Positions 5,324-62,822 of a stretch of 64,000 bases of DNA are shown here, piece by piece (the first letter of the stretch is position 1; the number at the start of each line of letters is the position of its first letter). Below the pieces are notes generated by a model that did no database searches, was not told where the DNA came from, and saw only the letters and a program-made list of their open reading frames with translations. The stretch comes from Kocuria sp. (GTDB lineage Bacteria; Actinomycetota; Actinomycetes; Actinomycetales; Micrococcaceae): NCBI RefSeq assembly GCF_030538595.1, contig NZ_JAUNTS010000002.1, positions 1 to 64,000 of the forward strand, read 5' to 3'. The position numbers and the translations under genes are program-made.

Positions 5324-6676
5324 ATGAAACCAATTGTTCTCCGCAGCGCCATTGTGGCTGCCCTGGGTGGTCTGCTGTTCGGCTTTGACACAGCTGTGAT
5401 CTCCGGGACCACACAGGCTTTGACCGAGCAGTTCAATCTGGGGACTTTTGCCCTGGGGTTCACTGTGGCATCGGCCCTGATTGGCACGATCATTGGGGCG
5501 CTGACGGCTGGGCGGCCCTCCGACCGCTACGGCCGTAAGAACATCCTTGTGGTGATTGGTGTGCTGTACCTGGTCTCCGCCATTGGGTCCGCCGTGGTGG
5601 ACAACTGGTATCTGTTCATTTTCTTTCGATTCCTGGGCGGTATAGGCGTGGGCGGTGCCTCCGTGACCGCCCCCATCTACACCGCAGAAATCTCCCCGCC
5701 CCGATTGCGTGGCCGCCTGGTGGGTTTGGTTCAGTTCAATGTGGTGCTGGGCATTCTCTTGGCGTACCTGTCCAATTACTTCATTGCCCGGGCCATTGAT
5801 CCGGGGGTGGCCTGGCGCTGGATGTTTGGCGTGGAGGCTCTGCCCGCAGCCATCTTCATCCTCTTGCTCTTCACAGTCCCCGAATCGCCACGTTGGCTTT
5901 TCCTCAAAGGCCGCACAGACTTGGCTCGGACCAACATGCAACGGCTGGCCACGTCACCGCAGGAAGCGGCTGAGCTGGAAACCGAAATTCAGGACGCTGT
6001 TGCGGATCTGGCCAAAGACACCAGCAAGGTGCGGTTTTTTGTGCCCCAGTACCGCAGGGTCATACTCCTGGCCATCGCCATTGCGGCGTTCAACCAACTC
6101 TCCGGCATCAACGCCATCATGTACTACGCGCCGGACATTTTCCGCATGGCCGGCGCCGGCGATGACTCGGCATTCCTGCAATCCATTGCCGTTGGCGGGA
6201 TGAATCTGATTGCCACCATGGTGGCCCTGACCGTGATTGACAAGTTCGGCCGCCGCAAACTCATGTTGATCGGGTCGATTGGTTACCTGATCAGCCTGGG
6301 CGTGATTGCCATGTTGTTCTTCACCCAGGGCGACAATTTCGGCAACCTCAGCAGCGCCCTGGTGCTGGCCTCACTACTGTTGTTCATTGCGGCTCACGCC
6401 TTCGGCCAAGGTTCAGTGATCTGGGTTTTCATCTCAGAAATCTTCCCCAACCGTGTCCGTGCCCGCGGCCAGGCTTTGGGCTCCTTCACGCACTGGTTTG
6501 CCGCTGCGGTGATCAGTTGGACCTTCCCCTGGATTGCCGGTGGCCTGGGGCCGGGAACGGCATTCGCAGTGTTTTTCGTCTGCATGGTGGCCCAGTTGAT
6601 CTGGGTCATCAAAGCCATGCCGGAAACCAAGGGAGTTGCCTTGGAAGAGATGGAGCGCGAACTCAGCACACGCTGA
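5324..6676 (+). CDS. Sugar porter family MFS transporter
   Basis: 450 residues from the ATG at 5324; longer in-frame starts exist upstream but add residues with no family resemblance. Twelve membrane segments are expected. Sugar-porter signatures are present: LFGFDTAVISG in segment 1, DRYGRKN in the 2-3 loop, PESPRWLFLKGR before the central loop, NQLSGINAIMYYAPDIF in segment 7, DKFGRRKL in the 8-9 loop and PETKGVALEEME at the C-terminus. It is probably a proton symporter for a hexose, pentose or inositol. It is monocistronic and ends at a strong bidirectional hairpin. An inverted repeat at 5240-5263 may control it. Confidence 0.88.
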   Translation: MKPIVLRSAIVAALGGLLFGFDTAVISGTTQALTEQFNLGTFALGFTVASALIGTIIGALTAGRPSDRYGRKNILVVIGVLYLVSAIGSAVVDNWYLFIFFRFLGGIGVGGASVTAPIYTAEISPPRLRGRLVGLVQFNVVLGILLAYLSNYFIARAIDPGVAWRWMFGVEALPAAIFILLLFTVPESPRWLFLKGRTDLARTNMQRLATSPQEAAELETEIQDAVADLAKDTSKVRFFVPQYRRVILLAIAIAAFNQLSGINAIMYYAPDIFRMAGAGDDSAFLQSIAVGGMNLIATMVALTVIDKFGRRKLMLIGSIGYLISLGVIAMLFFTQGDNFGNLSSALVLASLLLFIAAHAFGQGSVIWVFISEIFPNRVRARGQALGSFTHWFAAAVISWTFPWIAGGLGPGTAFAVFFVCMVAQLIWVIKAMPETKGVALEEMERELSTR

Positions 6677-6721: not shown

Positions 6722-6765
6722 AGGTACGACGACGGCGGTGGTCACCCACCGCCGTCGTCGTACCT
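6722..6765. terminator. Bidirectional hairpin terminator between convergent genes
   Basis: Twenty-base arms beginning AGGTACGACG and ending CGTCGTACCT are perfectly complementary around the loop TCAC. The hairpin lies between the sugar porter and the convergent ppk2 gene, where it can stop transcription from both sides. There is no long T tract, so it is not a canonical E. coli-type terminator. Confidence 0.7.
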
Positions 6766-6787: not shown

Positions 6788-7759
6788 TCAAGCCTTTTTG
6801 GACTTCTTGGCTTTGCTGGACTTACCAGCCTTTTGTGCGGAGGAGGCCTTTCCTGACTTTTTCTTGCCGGAGCCCTCAGCCAGTGCAGCTTGTTCGATCG
6901 TGGTGGCATGATCGGCCACTTCATGCTGTAGGGACCGGTCCGGGCGGCGGTACCCGTTGGTGGTTGGCCGCTTGGGCAGGGACAGTTCGGGAAGCGGCAC
7001 GCGTTCCCACGGCACACGCTCCAGCAAATCCGCGATCATGTTGATCCGTGCGCGACGTTTGTCCTCGGCTTCCACAAAATTCCACGGGGATTCCGGAATG
7101 TCCGTGTGCACCAGCATGGCGTCCCGGGCGCGTGAGTAGTCCTCCCAGCGGGTGATTGATTCCAGGTCCATGGGGGAGAGCTTCCAGTGCCGCATGGGGT
7201 CTTCCATGCGAGACTCAAAGCGCTTGTACTGTTCATCCCCGGACACGGAAAACCAGTACTTGATCAAAATGATGCCGTCCTCCACCAACATGCGCTCAAA
7301 AATGGGGCACTGACGCAGGAACCGGCGGTATTCCTGGGGAGTGCAGAACCCCATCACTCGTTCCACCCCGGCGCGGTTGTACCAGGAGCGGTCCAGCAGC
7401 ACGATCTCACCTGCGGCCGGCAAGTGTTGAATGTAGCGCTGGAAATACCACTGCGTCTTTTGCCGCTCGGTGGGCGCAGGAAGCGCCACAATGCGGGCGA
7501 TTCGGGGATTCAGATATTCGGTGACGCGTTTGATCGCCCCGCCCTTGCCAGCGGCATCGCGGCCCTCAAAAATAACGACGACGCGCTGTCCCGTGGCTTT
7601 GACCCACTCCTGCATCTCCACCAACTCGGCCTGCAGCCGAAGCAACTCGGCCTCATAGATGGCCTTGTTCATCCGTTTTTTGGGTTTGTGGGAGACGGAG
7701 TCTTCCAGATCCAGAGCGTCGTTGTCCGTGGGATCTTGTGGTGTGGTGTCTTTTGCCAT
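6788..7759 (-). CDS. ppk2: Polyphosphate kinase 2 (PPK2)
   Basis: 323 residues. Walker A is GRDAAGKGGAIKR (about residues 66-78), the lid module has the conserved arginines in NPRIARIVALPAPTERQKTQWYFQRY, and Walker B is DRSWYNRAGVERVMGFC (about 123-139). These mark a PPK2 that transfers phosphate between polyphosphate and nucleotides, usually making GTP/ATP from GDP/ADP. The C-terminal 40 residues are a Lys/Ser/Ala-rich tail (ending SSKAKKSKKA), probably an acidic-polymer-binding extension. It follows the condensation-like gene in the same direction with a 33-base gap, but no functional link is obvious. Confidence 0.92.
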   Translation of the reverse strand: MAKDTTPQDPTDNDALDLEDSVSHKPKKRMNKAIYEAELLRLQAELVEMQEWVKATGQRVVVIFEGRDAAGKGGAIKRVTEYLNPRIARIVALPAPTERQKTQWYFQRYIQHLPAAGEIVLLDRSWYNRAGVERVMGFCTPQEYRRFLRQCPIFERMLVEDGIILIKYWFSVSGDEQYKRFESRMEDPMRHWKLSPMDLESITRWEDYSRARDAMLVHTDIPESPWNFVEAEDKRRARINMIADLLERVPWERVPLPELSLPKRPTTNGYRRPDRSLQHEVADHATTIEQAALAEGSGKKKSGKASSAQKAGKSSKAKKSKKA

Positions 7760-38065: not shown

Positions 38066-38632
38066 ATGGCTGAGCAGCAGGCACCCCACCACTGGGTCAG
38101 GCAGGACGACTTTCGGCTGGCTGGGGTGCCTGATGCTTTTCAAAGGCTCTGGACTCCGCACCGCCTGGCCTACGTGCGCGGGGAGGACACTTCCGTTCCC
38201 ACACGGCCCGGATGCCCGTTCTGCACGGGACCGCAGTACGAGGACGCCGAATCGCTGATTGTCCACCGCGGCGAGCACTGCTTTGTGATCCTCAATCTGT
38301 TCCCCTACAACCCCGGGCACCTGCTGGTGTGTCCCTACCGGCACGTAGCTGATCTTGAAGAGTTGACCCAGCACGAGCTGGTGGAACTCATGGAACTGAC
38401 CCGTGACGGGATCCGGGCGGTTCGTGCCGCAGCATCACCGGATGCGTTCAACACCGGGCTGAATCTGGGGGAGGCCGCCGGGGGCTCTCTGGCGGCACAC
38501 CTGCACATGCACGTGGTGCCGCGCTGGGGCGGGGATGCCAACTTCATGCCGGTGACCGCCGGTACCAAAGCGATGATGGACACCTTGGGCTCCACCTGGG
38601 AACTCACCCGCGCGAATTGGCCCATTCCATAA
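38066..38632 (+). CDS. HIT family nucleotide hydrolase/phosphorylase
   Basis: 188 residues with the catalytic HLHMHVVPRW (HxHxHxx) near residues 148-157 and a zinc-like CPFCTGPQ near 51-58. Actinobacterial HIT proteins next to thrS resemble diadenosine tetraphosphate (Ap4A) phosphorylases/hydrolases; Ap4A is a by-product of aminoacyl-tRNA synthetases, which makes the pairing sensible. It ends immediately before a palindromic bidirectional terminator. Confidence 0.9.
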   Translation: MAEQQAPHHWVRQDDFRLAGVPDAFQRLWTPHRLAYVRGEDTSVPTRPGCPFCTGPQYEDAESLIVHRGEHCFVILNLFPYNPGHLLVCPYRHVADLEELTQHELVELMELTRDGIRAVRAAASPDAFNTGLNLGEAAGGSLAAHLHMHVVPRWGGDANFMPVTAGTKAMMDTLGSTWELTRANWPIP

Positions 38633-38695
38633 CGCCGAAAACATGGTTTGACCCAAAATTTGGCCAAAAAATTGGGTCAAACCATGTTTTCGGCG
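38633..38695. terminator. Palindromic repeat family B, copy 1 (bidirectional terminator)
   Basis: Arms of 24 bases are perfectly complementary (38633-38656 and 38672-38695), beginning CGCCGAAAACATGG and ending CCATGTTTTCGGCG, around a 15-base spacer that contains TTTGGCCAAA. It begins on the base after the HIT stop codon and lies before the convergent M3 peptidase stop. The outer part of the arm recurs at 59948-60012. Confidence 0.85.
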
Positions 38696-38705
38696 GAGTT
38701 GGGAG

Positions 38706-40751
38706 TTAGTGGAGGCCGCGGCGGGCCAACAGCGGACCCATGTCCGGCTCCCTGCCGAGCAGTGCACGGACCCCGTCCATGGGGTCGGTTTCGTTACCGC
38801 GGGACAGGATGCAGCGCGCAAACTCGGCCCCTGCCTCCGCCGACAACCCTCCGTGCGCGTTGAACCACTCCACGGCATCCGCATCAATGATTTCCGACCA
38901 CAGATAGGAGTAATACCCCGCGGAGTACCCACCGGCAAAGATGTGCTTGAAACTGCCGGAGGTGTAGCGCGGGTCTATCCCATCCACCAGGAGCCCCGCA
39001 GCCTCCACCGCATCCCGGTCAAAGGTGGCCAGCTCAGGTGCAGGTGCCTCCGGCGTTCGCTCGTGCCACGCCAGGTCAATGGCCGTGGCCGCCAAATACT
39101 CCACCGTGGCAAAGCCCTGACCGGAGGTGGTTTTGGAGCGCAGCTTGTCCACAGCGACTTGCGGCAGAGGTTCGCCAGTGTGGTGGTGCTTGGCATAGAC
39201 GGGCAGCACGTCCGCGTGGTCCACCCACATTTCATACACCTGAGACGGGAACTCCACCACGTCGCGGGCAACCTTGGTCCCCGCAAAAGACGGGTAAAAC
39301 ACGTCCGAGAGCAGCCCGTGGAGCACGTGCCCGAACTCGTGGAAGAGCGTGATGACCTCGCTGTGGCTCAAGAGCTTGGGCGACCCCTGTGGCGCCCGGG
39401 TGAAATTGGTGTTCAGCGTGACCACGGGCCGCTGCTTGCCCAGCCGGTTCTGGTGCACCAGTGTGCCCATCCACGCTCCACCGGACTTGGTGGGACGCGC
39501 CCACCAGTCCGCCAGCACCAGCCCCACGGTTTCCCCGGTGGCCGCACGCCGGCATTGATAAACGACGACGCCCGGCAGGTGCCCGCGCAGATCATCCCGC
39601 TGCGTGAACTCCAGCCCGAACAATTCCCGCGCCGTGTGGAACAGCCCGTGGTGCACCACTGATTCCAGTTCAAAATAGTCCCGGAGATTCACGGGAGATT
39701 CATCCGCATCGGAGATCTCGGCACGGGCCGCCCAGTAGGGCCAATCCCAAGGTTGGATGGGGTGGCCCGCACGGCGTTCCAGCTGTTCACGTTCGGCCAC
39801 AGCGTTGCGCACGGCTGCTGGCGTCACGGTGGACATCATGTTGTGAACCCGGCCGGGTTCTCCCGCCGCTGATCCGGCCATCACGAACTCGTCGTGACTG
39901 TTGAATCCCAGCAGCTGGGCTTGCTCGGCGCGTAATCCGGCCAATTCGGCGGCAATGGGGCGCAGGTCTTCGCGGGAGCTGGTGGGCAGTTCGCCGCTGG
40001 GATCGGAGGGACCACGGCCCCGGTCCATGGCAGCCTGATGGATCTCCTGGCGTAATTGGCGGTCATGAAGTTGAGCCAAAACCGGCTGGGTGGTGAAGGC
40101 CGCGAGGGCAAGGAGGTAGGCGCCGTCGTGCCCGGCTTCTGCTGCGGCACTGGCTGCGGCGTCAATGTCCGCTTCCTCCATGCCCGCCAGCCGGTCGCGG
40201 TCTGTGACCAGCACGGCGGCACGTTGGTTTTCGCGCACCAGGTGGGTTCCGTAGCGGATGCCCAGGGTGGAGATGCGGTCATTGATCTCCCGCAAGCGCG
40301 CCTGCGCGGCCGCATCCAGGAGGACACCGGAGCGTTCAAACCACCGCCGGTACTCGCGCAGCACACGCAACTGGGTGCGGCTCAGACCGTCCTCCGGAAC
40401 GGCGGCGATCCGCTGGTAGAGGTGCCGGTTCAGGGTGATGTCCGCGCGGTGCTGAGAAAGTTTGGTGGCCAGGTCCTCGTAGATGGCTTGTAGGTCATCA
40501 CTGAGGTCACCGGCGGTCAGGGTGAAGAAGGTGGACTCCACCCGATCAAGGAACAACCCTTCGCGTTCCAGCACGTCCAGCGTGTTCTCCATGGTGGGGG
40601 GCCCTGGATCGGCCAGCACAGTGTGCACAGCAGCCACATCAGCTGCCATGGCAGCTTCAAAGGCCGGTGGAAAGTGCTCAGCCTCCAGTGCTGCAAAATC
40701 CGGCAGGTTGCACTCCAGGTCACTGGGCTTCATCAGCGGGTTGCTCACCAC
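38706..40751 (-). CDS. M3 family zinc metallopeptidase (peptidyl-dipeptidase Dcp-like)
   Basis: 681 residues. The zinc motif LFHEFGHVLHGLLSD (HExxH with the M3-type HEFGH) lies near residue 466, and the third ligand Glu is in the downstream helix SQVYEMWVDH. The N-terminal third is alpha-helical, as in Dcp/oligopeptidase A. There is no signal peptide, so it probably trims cytoplasmic peptides. It is monocistronic, convergent with HIT and divergent from murT with about 75 bases between starts. Length matches Dcp. Confidence 0.92.
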   Translation of the reverse strand: MVSNPLMKPSDLECNLPDFAALEAEHFPPAFEAAMAADVAAVHTVLADPGPPTMENTLDVLEREGLFLDRVESTFFTLTAGDLSDDLQAIYEDLATKLSQHRADITLNRHLYQRIAAVPEDGLSRTQLRVLREYRRWFERSGVLLDAAAQARLREINDRISTLGIRYGTHLVRENQRAAVLVTDRDRLAGMEEADIDAAASAAAEAGHDGAYLLALAAFTTQPVLAQLHDRQLRQEIHQAAMDRGRGPSDPSGELPTSSREDLRPIAAELAGLRAEQAQLLGFNSHDEFVMAGSAAGEPGRVHNMMSTVTPAAVRNAVAEREQLERRAGHPIQPWDWPYWAARAEISDADESPVNLRDYFELESVVHHGLFHTARELFGLEFTQRDDLRGHLPGVVVYQCRRAATGETVGLVLADWWARPTKSGGAWMGTLVHQNRLGKQRPVVTLNTNFTRAPQGSPKLLSHSEVITLFHEFGHVLHGLLSDVFYPSFAGTKVARDVVEFPSQVYEMWVDHADVLPVYAKHHHTGEPLPQVAVDKLRSKTTSGQGFATVEYLAATAIDLAWHERTPEAPAPELATFDRDAVEAAGLLVDGIDPRYTSGSFKHIFAGGYSAGYYSYLWSEIIDADAVEWFNAHGGLSAEAGAEFARCILSRGNETDPMDGVRALLGREPDMGPLLARRGLH

Positions 40752-55208: not shown

Positions 55209-56558
55209 ATGGCCTCCAAGTCCTCCCTGTCCGGATTCCCCGAATGGCTGCCCCAAGAGCGCCTGGTGGAGCTGCACGTTCTGGACACGCTGCGGGAGAC
55301 CTTTGAGCTGCACGGATTTTCCTCCATCGAGACCCGGGCCGTGGAGACCGTGGACCAGCTGTTGCGCAAGGGTGAGATCGACAAAGAGGTCTACGGAATC
55401 TCCCGCCTGGCCGAGGACGAGGAAGCCGCAGCCGTTGCCAAGGAGGGCAAGCTGGCGCTGCACTTTGATCTCACCGTCCCGTTCGCGCGCTACGTGGTGG
55501 ACAACGCCGGGCACCTGAACTTCCCGTTCCGGCGCTATCAGATCCAGAAAGTGTGGCGCGGGGAGCGCCCGCAGGACGGCCGCGCACGCGAATTCACCCA
55601 GGCGGACATTGACGTCGTGGGGGATGGCACCTTGCCATTCCGCTACGACGTCGAATTGGCCCTGGTCATGATTGATGCCCTGTCCAAGCTGCCGATTCCT
55701 GAATTCAAGCTGCGGATCAACAACCGCAAGCTGGCGGAGGGCTTTTACCGGGGTGTCGGGCTCACGGACGCCCCCGCGGTCCTGCGGGAGATCGACAAGC
55801 TGGAAAAGATCGGCGCGGAGAAGGTGGCCCAGAATCTGCGCACCGCCGTGGGCGCCACGGAGGCCCAGGCCCACGCTGCCCTGGAACTGGCCTCGATCCG
55901 TACGGAGGACACCGGGTTCGTGGAGCAGGTCCGCGCCTTGGGCGTGACCGATGACCTGCTGGAGGAAGGTCTGGCGGAGCTGGCCGAGGTCATGGCGGAG
56001 GGTGTGCGCCGCGCGCCGGGCAAGATGGTGGCCGATCTGTCGATTGCCCGCGGCCTGGACTACTACACGGGCACCGTGTACGAAACCGTGCTGGTCGGCC
56101 ACGAAAAGCTGGGGTCCATCTGCTCCGGTGGCCGCTACGAATCCCTGGCCACCTCCGGCAAACGGAGCTTCCCCGGAGTGGGGCTCTCGATCGGCGTCAC
56201 TCGCTTGGTCTCGCGCATGGTGGGGCAGAACTTGGCGGTGGCCAGCCGCGCGGTGCCCACGGCCGTGTTGATTTCCCTGGTCAACGAGGACTCCTGGGCT
56301 GATGCCCAGGACGTGGCCACGCAGTTGCGCGCCCGCGGCATTGCCTGCGAGGTCTCCGCCAGTGCTGCCAAGTTCGGCAAGCAGATCAAGTACGCGGACA
56401 AGCGCGGCATTCCGTTCGTGTGGTTCTCCACCATCGACGACGACGGCGCGGTCACCCACGAGGTCAAGGACATCCGCTCGGGGGAGCAGGTCACAGCGGA
56501 CCCGCAGACCTGGATGCCTCCGGCCGAGGATCTGACGGTGAGTGTGTCCGAAGCCTGA
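55209..56558 (+). CDS. hisS: Histidyl-tRNA synthetase
   Basis: 449 residues from the ATG at 55209, which has AGGAGC 9 bases upstream; an in-frame upstream extension is not family-like. Class II motif 2 appears as LTVPFARYVVDN ... FRRYQIQKVWRGERPQ, the histidine-binding loops as ARGLDYYTGTVYE and SICSGGRYESLA, and motif 3 as GVGLSIGVTRL. The anticodon domain starts near 345 and ends with VSVSEA. It charges tRNA-His. Transcription should stop at the 60-nt palindrome that begins 9 bases after the stop codon. Confidence 0.96.
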   Translation: MASKSSLSGFPEWLPQERLVELHVLDTLRETFELHGFSSIETRAVETVDQLLRKGEIDKEVYGISRLAEDEEAAAVAKEGKLALHFDLTVPFARYVVDNAGHLNFPFRRYQIQKVWRGERPQDGRAREFTQADIDVVGDGTLPFRYDVELALVMIDALSKLPIPEFKLRINNRKLAEGFYRGVGLTDAPAVLREIDKLEKIGAEKVAQNLRTAVGATEAQAHAALELASIRTEDTGFVEQVRALGVTDDLLEEGLAELAEVMAEGVRRAPGKMVADLSIARGLDYYTGTVYETVLVGHEKLGSICSGGRYESLATSGKRSFPGVGLSIGVTRLVSRMVGQNLAVASRAVPTAVLISLVNEDSWADAQDVATQLRARGIACEVSASAAKFGKQIKYADKRGIPFVWFSTIDDDGAVTHEVKDIRSGEQVTADPQTWMPPAEDLTVSVSEA

Positions 56559-56566
56559 TTCCGGCC

Positions 56567-56626
56567 AGACCGTGCGCAGTTTGATACCTCATCAGCGCTG
56601 ATGAGGTATCAAACTGCGCACGGTCT
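56567..56626. repeat. Palindromic repeat family A, complete copy (60-nt perfect palindrome)
   Basis: A perfect 60-base palindrome runs from AGACCGTGCG to CGCACGGTCT with the centre AGCGCT at 56594-56599, followed by TTT. As RNA it folds into a stem of up to 28 pairs, and it reads the same on both strands. It lies between hisS and a convergent APC permease. Its right half is repeated at 1-34, so it is a dispersed element doing the job of a bidirectional terminator. Confidence 0.92.
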
Positions 56627-56637
56627 TTCCCGTTGGG

Positions 56638-57960
56638 TCAGCGGCGCAGCAGCACCCGGCCCAGCAGGCCGATGGCCAGGACTCCTGCCATGACCAGCAC
56701 GGAGGTCCACGGCAGGGCGAAAGCCAAAGCCAGGCACCCGGTCAAACCCACCACATTGACCAGGCGCGGGGCCCAACGTGGCCGATCCTCCATGGTCAGG
56801 GCTGAAAGATTCGCCAGCGCGTAGTACAGCAGCACCCCGAAAGATGAAAACCCGATCACGGTGTAAACATCCGTGAGCAGCACCAGGGCGATGACCAGCA
56901 CCGCCGTCGTGATTTCGGAAAGCCAGGGGACGCCACGGCGGGACACTGCTGTGAGCGGCTGGGGGAGGTCGCGCTCCCGAGCCATGGCCAAGGAGGTGCG
57001 GGAGATGCCGGCAATCAGAGCCAGCAGCGCCCCCAGTGTGCCCAGGGCGGCGGCTACGGTGACGGCTGCGGCCAACACTCCGGCGGCACCGGAGGAGAGC
57101 CCCAGATGTTCGACGGCGGTGAGCAGCGCGGCCTGCGAATTTGCCAGGGTTCCGGGGCCCAGCAGCGCCAGGAGCAGCCCGCCAAGTGTTGCGTACAAGA
57201 CCAGTGTGAGCGCCAAAGCACCCAAGATGGCTCGGGGAATGGTGCGTTCGGGGTCGCGGACCTCCTCGCCCATGGTGGCAATGCGGGCGTAGCCGGCAAA
57301 GGCGAAGAACAGCATGGCTGCCGCCGGGAAGATTCCCCAGGCTGAACCGGACGTGGTGGGCTCCGGTGCGGCCGTGCTGCTGGAATCCCCACCTGCGACG
57401 ACGACCGCCATGGCCACCCCCAGCGCCAGCAGCACCGCCAGAACACAAGCCACCAACACTTTGGTGACCGTGGCGGTCTTGGTCACACCGAGCAGGTTGA
57501 TCCCGGTCAGCGCCACGATCCCCACCACCGCAAACACGGCCGCCCAGAGCTGGTTGTTTTCACGGGCCAGCAGCCCAGCAGCATTCAACAATCCGGCCAC
57601 GTACAGCCCAAAGGTCATGGCCATGGCGGCGGCCGAGGCGGTCTTACCGGTGACAAAGCTCCACCCCGCCATGAAACCCGGCCAGGGACCCAGCCGTTTG
57701 GAGGCGTACACGTAAGTTCCGCCGGAGCTGGGGTAGCGGGCAGCCAACTGGGCCGTTGAGGTGGCGTTGCACCAGGCCACCACGGCAGCCAGGAACACCG
57801 CGGCCAACATCCAGTTTCCGGCGTGGGCGGCAGCGGGGGTGAAAGCCACAAACACACCGGCGCCCACCATGGAGCCGATCCCGATCACGGTGGCATCGGT
57901 GAGACTCAACCGTCGGTGCAGCTGCCCGGTGGTGGGGGTGGAGTGTGAGGAAGACGGCAC
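56638..57960 (-). CDS. APC family amino acid permease
   Basis: 440 residues from a GTG at 57960 (VPSSSHSTPT), after which LSLTDATVIGIGSMVGAGVF gives the APC first-helix motif GxGxxxGxGIF-like. About twelve membrane segments follow, with SSGGTYVYASKRLGPWPGF in the 2-3 region and GEEVRDPERTIPRA in the helix 6-7 loop. The family imports amino acids with protons. It is convergent with hisS and divergent from aspS, standing alone. The start is the least certain part: no strong ribosome-binding site is present. Confidence 0.85.
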   Translation of the reverse strand: MPSSSHSTPTTGQLHRRLSLTDATVIGIGSMVGAGVFVAFTPAAAHAGNWMLAAVFLAAVVAWCNATSTAQLAARYPSSGGTYVYASKRLGPWPGFMAGWSFVTGKTASAAAMAMTFGLYVAGLLNAAGLLARENNQLWAAVFAVVGIVALTGINLLGVTKTATVTKVLVACVLAVLLALGVAMAVVVAGGDSSSTAAPEPTTSGSAWGIFPAAAMLFFAFAGYARIATMGEEVRDPERTIPRAILGALALTLVLYATLGGLLLALLGPGTLANSQAALLTAVEHLGLSSGAAGVLAAAVTVAAALGTLGALLALIAGISRTSLAMARERDLPQPLTAVSRRGVPWLSEITTAVLVIALVLLTDVYTVIGFSSFGVLLYYALANLSALTMEDRPRWAPRLVNVVGLTGCLALAFALPWTSVLVMAGVLAIGLLGRVLLRR

Positions 57961-58155: not shown

Positions 58156-59919
58156 GTGCTGCGCACACACAGCCTTGGCGAACTCAACGCCGAGCACATT
58201 GGTCAGACAGTCACCCTGGCGGGTTGGGTGGGGCGTCGTCGGGATCACGGCGGCGTGGCCTTCCTGGATCTGCGCGATGCCTCCGGGGTGGCCCAGGTTG
58301 TGGTGCGCAATGAAGAGGACTTTGACCACCTGCGCAACGAGTACGTCCTGCAGGTCACCGGCACCGTTGAACGGCGCCCCGACGGCAACGAAAACCCCAA
58401 TCTGGCCTCCGGTCAGGTGGAGATCATGGCGGAGACTGTCACGGTGCTCAACACGGCAGCACCCCTGCCGTTCCAGATCGACGAGCACGTGGAGGTGGGG
58501 GAGGAAGCGCGGTTGAAGTACCGCTACCTGGACCTGCGCCGTCCCGAGCCCGCCCGCATCATGCGGCTGCGTTCGGAGGTCAACCGGGTGGCTCGCAACC
58601 TGCTGCATGACCGCGGATACCTGGAGGTCGAAACCCCCACGCTGACCCGCTCCACCCCTGAAGGTGCCCGCGATTTCCTGGTTCCGGCCCGCCTGGCACC
58701 GGGCTCCTGGTACGCGCTGCCGCAGTCCCCCCAGCTGTTCAAGCAGTTGTTGCAGGTGGGTGGGCTGGAAAAGTACTTCCAGATTGCCCGCTGCTACCGG
58801 GACGAGGACTTCCGCGCCGACCGTCAGCCCGAGTTCACCCAGTTGGACATTGAGGCTTCCTTTGTGGAGGAAGACGACATCATTGAGCTCGGTGAGGCTC
58901 TGGTGCGTGAGTTGTGGCGGCTGATCGACGTCGACATCCCTACGCCCATTCGCCGGATGACCTACGCGGAGGCCATGGAGAAGTACGGCTCTGACAAGCC
59001 GGATCTGCGCTTTGGGCTGGAACTGACCGACTTGACGGAGTACTTCCAGAACACGCCATTCCGGGTGTTCCAAGCTCCGTACGTGGGTGCCGTGGTCATG
59101 CCCGGTGGGGCTTCCCAGCCCCGGCGCACGCTGGATGCCTGGCAGGAATGGGCCAAGCAGCGCGGTGCCAAGGGCCTGGCCTACATCCTGCTGAAGGACG
59201 ACGGCGAAATCACCGGTCCCGTGGCCAAGAACATCACCGACGAGGAGAAAGCCGGACTGGCGGCTGCCACCGGTGCAGCCCCCGGCGACTGCATCTTCTT
59301 TGCCGCCGGTGAGATCAAGCCCTCCCGTGCGCTGCTGGGGGCAGCCCGGGTGGAGATCGGTCACCGCACGGGTTTGATCAATGATGCAGACTGGGCATTC
59401 GTGTGGGTTGTTGATGCCCCCATGTTTGAACCGGCTTCCGATGCCGTGGCTTCCGGCGATGTTGCCGTGGGCTCCGGTGCCTGGACCGCTGTGCACCACG
59501 CGTTCACCTCCCCCAAGCCGGAGTACCTGGACACCTTTGACACCAATCCGGGTGAGGCCCTGGCTTACGCCTACGACATCGTGTGCAACGGTGTGGAACT
59601 GGGCGGTGGGTCCATCCGTATCCATCAGCGCGATGTCCAGGACCGGGTGTTCCGGGTCATGGGGCTCTCCCAGGAGGAGGCCCAGGAGAAGTTCGGCTTC
59701 CTGCTGGATGCCTTCGCCTTCGGGGCGCCGCCGCACGGTGGCATTGCCCTGGGATGGGATCGCACCGTGGCCATGCTGGCCGGTACCGACTCCATCCGTG
59801 AGGTGATCGCCTTCCCCAAGACCGGCAACGGCTACGACCCCCTGACGGCAGCACCGGCGGCGATCACCGCGCAGCAGCGCAAGGAAGCCGGCGTGGATAC
59901 CAAGCCGGACCCCCAGTAA
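58156..59919 (+). CDS. aspS: Aspartyl-tRNA synthetase
   Basis: 587 residues from a GTG at 58156 with AAGGAA 8 bases upstream; a longer in-frame start adds unrelated sequence. The OB anticodon domain has [20 protein letters not shown], class II motif 2 is [22 protein letters not shown], the bacterial GAD insert spans about 300-420, and motif 3 is [13 protein letters not shown]. Length is normal for bacterial-type AspRS. Whether it also charges Asn cannot be told here. It ends before family B palindrome copy 2. Confidence 0.96.
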
Positions 59920-59947
59920 CCCACTCTCTCTTCCTTCCACCCACCCC

Positions 59948-60012
59948 CCGCCGAAATCATGGTTTCTGGCAATTTCAGGCACGAAAATTAGGGCAAACCA
60001 TGATTTCGGCGG
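59948..60012. terminator. Palindromic repeat family B, copy 2 (bidirectional terminator)
   Basis: Arms of 18 bases, CCGCCGAAATCATGGTTT (59948-59965) and AAACCATGATTTCGGCGG (59995-60012), are perfectly complementary around a 29-base loop. The arms match copy 1 (38633-38695) except for A/T at one position. It lies between aspS and the convergent P-type ATPase, the same convergent setting. Confidence 0.85.
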
Positions 60013-60026
60013 AGGGGAGGGGGAGG

Positions 60027-62822
60027 TCAGGTGTCTCGTTGGCTCGTGGAGCGACGAACAGCAGCCTTGGTTGCCTCCATGATGAGGAAGATCAACACGG
60101 CCACCACGATCGCCGTACCCCATTGGCGGATTCCCAATGAAGCAGATCCAAACCACACATGCATGAACGGCACGTAGGTGTAGATCAGCTGTAATCCGAC
60201 CAAGGTGGCGGTGGAGATCCAAACCGTCCGGTTGCCGGTCCAAGCCCTGCTGGTGAAGGCATGGGTGTTGAGCAGCCGGCAATTGAACAGATATGCCAAC
60301 TGACCAAGCGCAAGGGTTAACACTGCAGTTGTGCTGGCAATCTCTGAGCTACCCGTGAGTTCAAGTTGCACCAGGTATCCATACATGGCGCCACCACCGA
60401 TCACCAGGGAGGCCACCGCCACCAAGACCAACGATGACGCGGAAAGAACGTGTTCGTCCGTTGCTCGGGGCCGTCGGTTCATGATCCCCGGCTCCGCAGG
60501 CTCATTGGCCAAGGCCAAGCTCAAGGTGATGGCTGTGACCAGGTTGACCCAAAGAATCTGGACCGGTGACAGCGGCAAGGTCCAGCCCAGCAACACCGCC
60601 ACAATGATCACCAGGGACTGCGCACCGTTCGATGGCAACAAGAAGACGACGGACTTGCGGATGTTGTCATAGATCCGGCGCCCCTCTTCCACAGCGTGTT
60701 CAATGGTGGTGAAGTTGTCATCTGCCAGGACGATGTCGGCCGCCTCTTTGGTGGCTTCAGTGCCCTTGATACCCATGGCCACGCCTACATCGGCACGAGT
60801 GATTGATGGAGCATCATTGACGCCGTCGCCAGTCATGGCCACAACCTGGCCTTGGCTCTGAAGTGCCCGGACAATGCGGAGTTTGTGTTCCGGGGACGTC
60901 CGGGCGTACACGGAAACGTGCTGCACCGCTTGGCACAACTCGTCCTGAGTCATGGCCTCCAGCTGCGCCCCGGTCAAGGCGTTGGCAGCTTCACCAGGTT
61001 GGAGGATTCCCAACTCGCGCGCAATGGCGGTGGCAGTTCCCGGGTGGTCTCCCGTGATCATGGCCACCCTGATGCCAGCGTCTTTGCTCTTACGAATGGC
61101 TGCTTCTACCTCAGGCCTGGGTGGGTCCACGATCCCCACAAGACCCAGGAAGGTCAGGCCGGTGTCCAGGTCGCTACGCTCCAATCCGGCGTCCGACTCA
61201 GCGGGTCGCCGGGCTGCCGCCAGAACCCGCAAGCCTTGTGCCGACAACTCCTCCAGCTGCGCCGTCCAGTAAGAGCGGTCCAGGCTCTTGAGCGCGCCAT
61301 CCGTGGTCATCTCCGAATCGGAGCGGTCCAGCAGACGGTCTGGTGCACCGACGACGTGGATCATCAGGTGGGATTCCGCTTCCGGCTCCTTGCCGTGAGG
61401 GGTGATGCGGTCCAGGGTCGCCGAGTACTTGTACAAGGAGTCGAAGGGCACCTGATGCAAGCGCTCAATGTCATAGGGGCGTTGGCTCTGCTCCTGCTGC
61501 TGCTGCGGATCCCAGGCCTTGGTCGCCAGGACGGTCAAAGCCCCTTCAGTGGGCTGGCCCACCAGTTCCCAGCTGTCTTCACCTGGACGGACCTCGGCGT
61601 CGTTACAGGCCGCTGCAGCCAAAATCAGGGCATCGAAGGAACGGTCGTTGTTGAGCTCGACCACCCTGCCCTCGGGTGACACAACGCGCCCCTGCGGCCC
61701 GTAGCCGGTGCCCTCCACCGTGAAGCTTGAATCGCGGGTGACCGCTTCACGAGCCGTCATTTCATTCTGTGTGAGGGTGCCGGTTTTGTCAGAACAGATG
61801 ACCGTCACGGAACCAAGCGTTTCCACTGATTCCATGCGGCGGGTGATGGCTTGACGCCGGGCCATTTGTTGAACGCCAAGTGCAAGAGTGATGGTCACCA
61901 AAGCGGGTAGGCCCTCCGGAACAGCGGCAACGGCAAAACCTATGGCAGCCGAGACCAATTCATCCCCGGGCCAGTTGTGCACAAAGCGACCTATCAAAAG
62001 CATGGCGGCAGCCAATACCAGAATGATCAAGGACACTTGTTTCCCCAATCGGTCCAGCTGCCGATTCAGCGGGGTATCCATACTCTCCTGGTCGGCCACC
62101 AACTGGGAGATCTTTCCAATCTCCGTGTGGCCACCCGTAGCGACCACCACGCCTGTGGCTGTACCGGTGGTGATCAAGGTGCCGGAGAACAGCATTCCGG
62201 ACCGATCACCAAGCTGCGCTTCCACGGATACGGAGCGTTCATCCTTGTCAGTGGCTTCTGATTCACCCGTGAGAGCAGATTCGTCAGCTTTGACATTATT
62301 CGCTGCGATGATGCGTAGGTCCGCCGGGATGCGCGCGCCGGGTCCCAGCCGCACTAGGTCACCGGGGACCACTTCCGCCGCATCGACGTGCTCCCACTCC
62401 CCATCGCGTTTGACCTGCGCCTCCAGAGATTGCATATCTCGTAGGCTGGCCAGCGCTGAGGCTGCCCGTCCCTCTTGTACGTACCCGATCAGCCCCGTAG
62501 CCAGAATGACCACCATGATGACTGTGAAGTCAACCCAATCGCTGGAGACGGCTTTGAGTAGCGCGGCCGCCAACAAGATGTAGATCAATACATCCTGAAA
62601 CTGCCGCAAGAATCGACGCCACGCCGGCTCGGACTTCGCCTGCGGGAGCTCGTTGCGTCCGTGGCGTTGTATGCGCTTCTGAACCTGATCGGTTGTCAGG
62701 CCACTGTCAGCAGAGTCAAAGGCTTCCAATACTTCGGAGGATGAGGCTGCCCACGGATGCTCAGCTGCGGTTTCAGTACCAGGTGGTGCTGTACCGGGGA
62801 CGGGTGGTTCTGTCACGGTCAT
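60027..62822 (-). CDS. P-type cation-transporting ATPase (P2-type)
   Basis: 931 residues. The N-terminal cation-ATPase domain ([16 protein letters not shown]) leads to helices 1-2, the actuator loop [10 protein letters not shown], the helix-4 motif [13 protein letters not shown], the phosphorylation site [30 protein letters not shown] and the hinge [10 protein letters not shown]. Helix 6 reads [18 protein letters not shown]. The features fit the Ca2+/monovalent cation (SERCA/PMR1/Na-pump-like) P2 class; the ion is not certain. It follows the ferritin-like gene on the same strand after 97 bases and ends at family B palindrome copy 2. Confidence 0.9.

Follow-up and report, generated by a model that had tools for sequence, protein, structure and literature searches.

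Long palindromic hairpins past converging stop codons in a Kocuria genome: families of putative bidirectional terminators

What does a perfect palindrome of 60 nt do between two converging genes, and why does part of it recur elsewhere in the same DNA? The question arose from the window analysed here, the first 64 kb (64,000 nt) of contig C1 in a 27-contig, 3.14-Mb draft assembly of Kocuria sp. The best reading, to which we give a probability of about 0.72, is that this palindrome and others like it are putative bidirectional terminators with weak U-tracts, belonging to families that are homogenised per genome while the gaps in which they stand stay partly conserved.

The palindrome at hisS and its copies in the genome

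A check of the sequence showed that the palindrome is real and perfect over 60 nt (56567-56626, no strand assigned; named family A here), and the chance expectation for such a palindrome is about 3e-13 in 64 kb of the window's composition. The two genes between which an earlier note had placed it were confirmed, and both run toward it: hisS for histidine--tRNA ligase (55209-56558, + strand; TIGR00442) and an APC-type amino-acid permease gene (56638-57960, − strand; PF13520). Among named sequences, HisS of the window is most similar to that of Kocuria subflava YIM 13062, at 86% identity. The 34-base repeat at position 1 was also found as described: bases 1-34 equal 56590-56623 with 0 mismatches, a match slightly longer than the right half. 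Because base 1 of the window is base 1 of contig C1, this family A copy (1-34, no strand assigned) is truncated there and its left part is invisible. It lies 20 nt past the stop of a PatB/aminotransferase-like gene (55-1251, − strand). Gene ends throughout come from a simple codon-usage caller of our own writing, and individual cases may be wrong. The earlier note had also argued that the instability of so long a palindrome implies selection or copying, which is a weak argument since palindrome instability in E. coli begins at roughly 150 bp and longer.

The genome has not just the two copies visible in the window but 30, and the case of two copies alone, one part of what the earlier note had set down as refuting its reading, does not apply. 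A half-motif search of our draft with at most 3 mismatches gave 59 matches, 58 of them paired, and the family comprises 29 palindromes and the one truncated copy at C1:1; 26 of the 30 are uncut across the 54-nt core, contig ends truncate the other 4, and C12:7847-7902 has a shortened variant that is additional to the 30. Eight of the 54 contig ends (contigs C1, C4, C6, C7, C12 and C24) have a family A palindrome no more than 100 nt away, so the count of 30 may be an underestimate. Family A palindromes seem to break this assembly, which matters in general because palindromes coinciding with contig ends can disrupt short-read assemblies and conceal copies.

The family A consensus with its flanks is CAAG-CCGTGCGCAGTTTGATACC(C/T/G)CATCAG-SS-CTGATG(G/A/C)GGTATCAAACTGCGCACGG-CTTG. 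Covariation between the arms was analysed over the 20 distinct rows among 26 aligned copies with 500 shuffles. This analysis showed that 97.5% of the pair cells pair (shuffled mean 96.5; 97.5% reached by 1 of 500), that 6 cells have both sides changed (shuffled mean 2.5; 3 of 500 reach 6), and that 2 pairs carry both-side changes (reached by 37 of 500). Covariation of the arms is present, yet modest.

Outside our draft, the exact 36-nt core of family A had 0 matches in genome_contigs, a collection that may lack this genome or very near ones, and the 60-mer had no match among the plasmids or phages searched. A viral origin was considered and rejected: 25 IMG/VR contigs match a 16-mer, and as 0 of the 25 have a partner arm within 80 nt, these matches were regarded as chance. 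At gathering score, Rfam gave 0 matches in the window, and the open PMC literature, subscription journals being outside the search, yielded no paper on this Kocuria element.

Placement of the hairpins and signs of termination

The placement of family A was counted after leaving out 6 copies that are part of a MITE-like repeat. Both neighbours were called for 16 of the remaining copies, and of these 9 are in convergent gaps, 7 in co-directional gaps and 0 in divergent gaps, so that the convergent position asked about in the earlier note holds for 9/16 and not for all. Against the 93/647 share of convergent gaps, the convergent placement has P = 1e-4. The 7 co-directional copies begin 34, 1, 50, 164, 24, 9 and 65 nt beyond the upstream stop, and 8 further copies at contig ends, with one flank only, adjoin a gene 3' end in 5 cases and a gene 5' end in 3, the latter 3 speaking against a terminator.

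Such positions also bear on the idea that the palindrome serves a DNA-binding protein as operator or as nucleoid-organising site, the protein recognising the 14-mer tip CATCAGCGCTGATG and the outer GCCGA. The tip occurs in 7 of 27 genomes, namely 16 times in our own (G000), 10 times in G017 (taken to be K. subflava), 9 times in G024 and once in each of four others, and it recurs in differently armed hairpins of G000, G017, G024 and G026, as a recognised site might: long hairpins with other arms surround it at 9 of the 9 places looked at in G017 (of 10), at 8 of 8 in G024 (of 9) and at the single G026 place. But the relatives were retrieved with the tip as query, hence this sharing is partly ascertainment; the tip is dispensable, being absent from families B and D; and the sites are found where genes end rather than at promoters, with divergent gaps holding 0/16 of family A and 1/23 of family B. 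We therefore consider an operator improbable. Exact copies of the 14-mer in G002, G023 and G011, with a stem of 7, do not form a hairpin; two of them are inside called genes and the third adjoins one. Nor did anything found point to the palindrome as a target of a transposase or regulator, which the earlier note had suggested.

Families B and D resemble family A in behaviour. Family B has the motif CGCCGAAAACATGGTTTGACCC, with about 45 half-site matches genome-wide, and 30 of these 45 were used for placement, one entry (L261) being dropped as the other arm of another (L252); the 23 distinct hairpins with both flanks comprise 14 convergent, 8 co-directional and 1 divergent. In the window, a family B hairpin (38633-38695, no strand assigned) lies between convergent genes at 38066-38632 (+) and 38706-40751 (−), and a diverged one with 30-nt arms, 87% complementary, and a 29-nt loop (59936-60024, no strand assigned) lies between convergent aspS (58156-59919, +) and a P-type ATPase gene (60027-62729, −). 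Family B stems are often preceded by pyrimidine-rich and then followed by purine-rich sequence. Family D, with the motif CTGCCGAGTGTCCGAGTTTGGTCGTTTC and 22 forward and 24 reverse half-site matches, was placed from 18 loci, two of which had no hairpin; 7 of 11 hairpins are convergent and 4 co-directional. Its members include those at C1:73544, 74688, 213509 and 214344 and at C12:73912, among others. One family D hairpin (L444, C13 at about 89.3 kb in our genome) grows into a 113-nt inverted repeat with a score of 44, the highest printed. G001, a related Kocuria, has a hairpin with a near-identical family D arm, though K. subflava is closer by HisS identity. A 20-bp perfect hairpin outside any large family (6722-6765, no strand assigned) stands between convergent genes at 5324-6676 (+) and 6788-7759 (−).

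The same preference appears when hairpins are counted irrespective of family. Contigs C1 and C12 (790 kb) have 51 hairpins at a score of at least 18, of which 34 are in convergent gaps, and a block-shuffled C1 control gave 0 hairpins at score 15. Among the gaps of these contigs, a long hairpin was present in 31 of the 93 convergent, 13 of the 460 co-directional and 2 of the 94 divergent ones (contrasts between gap types were assessed by Fisher tests), and in 4 of the 6 convergent gaps of the window alone. K. subflava (377 kb) gave 13/42, 5/227 and 0/43, respectively. The rule of convergent-gap hairpins fails in parts of the genus. In G001 the corresponding fractions were 2/32, 8/113 and 2/33, where a preference of long hairpins for convergent gaps was not clear, and in G020 a hairpin was seen in 2 of 22 convergent gaps, with ordinary short stems. 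Across 80 named hisS loci, the convergent gaps with a long hairpin numbered 1 of 14 for Kocuria (13 loci), 1 of 8 for Rothia and 0 of 46 for the Arthrobacter group.

Structure and position speak for termination. The RNA of the hisS gap folds at -60.7 kcal/mol on one strand and -59.7 kcal/mol on the other, with z about -12. Across 83 transcript-strand hairpins the distance from stop codon to stem has a median of 28 nt and is at most 60 nt in 60, so a stable G+C-containing hairpin past the stop codon, as in an intrinsic terminator, is there. The U-rich tract that should stand straight after the stem is weak: the 8 nt after it contain a mean of 1.9 T, with at least 4 T in 11/83 hairpins and at least 5 T in 2/83, and because of this weak U-tract the hairpins are not classed as canonical U-tract terminators. 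A consensus terminator scan made no call at 56567-56626. The 20 nt ahead of the stem are 37% C and 24% G, and downstream of the stem G makes up 38%, compared with 32% C and 30% G past stop codons overall; we noticed that flanks C-rich upstream and G-rich downstream might fit a Rho/rut reading. Convergent placement above the expectation from gap numbers, as for bidirectional terminators, is found here and was not seen in G001.

The earlier note had proposed a dispersed element of REP/terminator type. The terminator half of this proposal is supported by the placement, by the stable hairpins on both strands and by the 31/93 versus 2/94 gaps, and a terminator-like function of the palindromes is predicted as likely; the strict REP half is not, there being neither a Y1 transposase nor the tags. 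Placement, structure and gap pattern together suggest that transcription ends at the palindromes. From whichever side family A is transcribed, an identical hairpin of about 28 bp would form right past the stop codon; it may stop or stabilise both converging transcripts and so act as a hairpin-dependent terminator or 3'-end former. This Kocuria lineage would then use very long hairpins of several families (A, B, D and others) in its gaps, chiefly convergent ones.

Spread of the palindromes and change at orthologous gaps

How did the copies come to be so many and so alike? One explanation is that the palindrome is purely a MITE or IS element that spread together with a transposon. A MITE-like repeat of about 600 bp with the inverted ends GGGTTATACGCC/GGCGTATAACCC does hold 6 of the 30 family A copies; it is complete at C12:43280-43878, C12:465944-466542 and C16:41231-41830 and has deletions at C19:264-736, C14:35767-36122 and C27:97843-98327, and pieces of it also terminate contigs C6 and C11 and open C10. 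In G018, a complete relative of this repeat codes for a transposase of the Mutator/MULE type. However, as the general carrier of family A this repeat was rejected, since it accounts for 6/30 copies only and among the other 24 the similarity stops about 4 nt outside the palindrome at either end. IS terminal inverted repeats with a target-site duplication at every copy, as expected of a MITE, were not found, duplications being checked by eye. In the G018 alignment, moreover, the two aligned blocks enclose transposase sequence at the place of our palindrome, which has no aligned counterpart there. The MITE/IS explanation is already disfavoured and we regard it as very improbable. In the 6 MITE copies, set in the same orientation, the two central bases are GG in 5 and CC in 1, as would be expected from a flip through the hairpin. 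As the palindromes are alike in both orientations, any two copies could recombine.

The second explanation is a selfish, REP-like mobile palindrome that inserts past stop codons, where it is harmless, so that any effect on termination is a by-product. It agrees with the near-identical family A copies at unrelated sites, with the presence of family A inside the MITE-like repeat, with the lack of the hisS palindrome in four relatives, and with whole hairpins being present or absent in both directions (for example, in K. subflava only at about C13:30.7 kb). Against it, the Y1 (HUH, RAYT-type) transposase that moves REPs, searched as PF01797, was found in 0 of 27 Kocuria genomes including our own, though 5 of 14 control genomes were positive; gaps aligned by eye, with flanks only about 80% identical, had no clear target-site duplication; and orthologous gaps often have a hairpin of different sequence, which is unexpected under neutral insertion. 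With no Y1/RAYT transposase in the 27 genomes, canonical REP membership fails, and the GTAG/CGTC tag is likewise absent from family A sequences by reading, families B and D having been read in printed copies only. A selfish palindrome is possible, but the doubts outweigh what favours it.

The own hairpins were compared with those of K. subflava at orthologous gaps. At hisS the palindrome is absent from K. subflava, G020, G026 and G019, and in the first three of these the called genes overlap by about 16-20 nt. Gain in the lineage of the window is the simplest reading of four relatives without it, and the hisS palindrome was probably gained there. Elsewhere, 32 own hairpins were in regions aligned to K. 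subflava and 28 could be mapped. The matching interval has some hairpin (score of at least 12) for 22 of the 28, 5 of these 22 intervals being loosely mapped (>1.4 kb), and 6 of the 28, including that at 56567, have no counterpart. In the reverse direction, K. subflava has a long hairpin right past a stop codon at C226, about 4.69 kb, and our genome has none at C13, about 30.68 kb.

A slot test was then made on 13 slots, 7 of families A, B or D and 6 others, which were 12 of the 22 paired hairpins together with C12:56390; the other 10 of the 22 were short, low-scoring or loosely mapped. In 7 of the 7 A/B/D slots the orthologue (identity 0.51-0.74) was less similar than both the best relative in our own genome (0.89-0.98) and the best in K. 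subflava (0.59-1.00). Since a best-of-many identity is biased upward, the 6 non-family slots served as control, and there the orthologue exceeded the best relatives from both genomes in 4 slots and failed to do so in 2. Random pairs of own and K. subflava hairpins have a mean identity of 0.49 and a 95th percentile of 0.63; the orthologue is above 0.63 in 4 of the 7 A/B/D slots and not above it in 3, which means that the slot histories are mixed. Judged by these identities, some slots look as if they had a common ancestor and then changed in concert, and others as if the hairpin had been replaced or gained independently. One pair of sites is C1:213509 and C1:214344, which both carry family D in our genome, and whose orthologous sites in K. 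subflava carry a 69-nt hairpin that is identical at its two sites and only 71-74% like our family D. Local conversion could account for this pair, the distance between its sites being 0.8 kb, but with family D copies on other contigs the sameness in our own genome reaches beyond it.

What is unusual about these hairpins is evolutionary, namely a concerted, species-specific sequence at shared gaps. Family members may be held near-identical within a genome by ectopic gene conversion or by the arrival of new copies, while the gap, and a requirement for a hairpin in it, would be partly conserved across species. A bolder form of this proposal, which we put forward tentatively and with more doubt than belief, is that the terminators of this Kocuria clade are concertedly evolving palindromes that convert or replace one another, so that many are rewritten together with gaps and structure kept, and without a REP-type transposase. 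Arms identical to all other arms in either orientation would let even distant copies convert or replace each other. If hairpins in orthologous gaps are rewritten in concert, a regulatory structure persists even as its sequence is made uniform across the genome. If true, this would provide a test case from nature for the spread of short palindromes in the absence of a dedicated transposase, and it would offer long, strong two-way terminator parts for GC-rich actinobacteria.

Comparison with known systems

Repeated hairpins have been described in several systems. An inverted-repeat survey of 118,019 genomes reports conserved arms near terminators, and in its available text the terms Kocuria and Micrococc are absent (PMC13155455). 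Stem-loop sequence families are repeated hairpins in bacterial genomes, for which the available part of the source names Corynebacterium and Mycobacterium as high-GC Gram-positives and not Kocuria (PMC2267715). The Kocuria hairpins likewise form repeated families, and the turnover at orthologous slots seen here is not mentioned in that part of the source (PMC2267715).

REPs, as far as the text available to us describes them, are dispersed intergenic palindromes with several families per genome and a preference for convergent and co-directional gaps (PMC3733652), and the Kocuria palindromes share all of this, being dispersed, intergenic, convergent or co-directional and of several families. Unlike the RAYT-mobilised REPs of 20-40 bp in the same text, family A is about 60 bp long and has neither the GTAG/CGTC tag nor a Y1 transposase, and many Kocuria palindromes are nearly perfect with a small loop or none; family A thus lacks both the transposase and the tag of a REP. 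In the uptake-signal terminators of Neisseria and Pasteurellaceae, according to the accessible portion of the paper, motifs of about 10 nt occur at least 1000 times (PMC1852404). There, as here, one repeated, lineage-specific motif makes hairpins enriched in tail-to-tail gaps. Unlike these signals, the half-motif of family A occurs 59 times, in 29 palindromes and one copy cut by a contig end, and instead of the hundreds to thousands of single motifs outside hairpins that DNA uptake would call for, 58 of the 59 are paired.

The Kocuria hairpins are most readily set beside bidirectional intrinsic terminators, like which they can be read from both strands, stand just past converging stops and have a weak or absent U-tract. 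Bidirectional terminators have been studied in E. coli, and weak-tail (I-shaped) terminators are known from actinobacteria. Unlike ordinary terminators, which are not sequence families, the Kocuria hairpins have near-perfect stems of 25-33 bp whose sequence recurs 20-30 times per genome.
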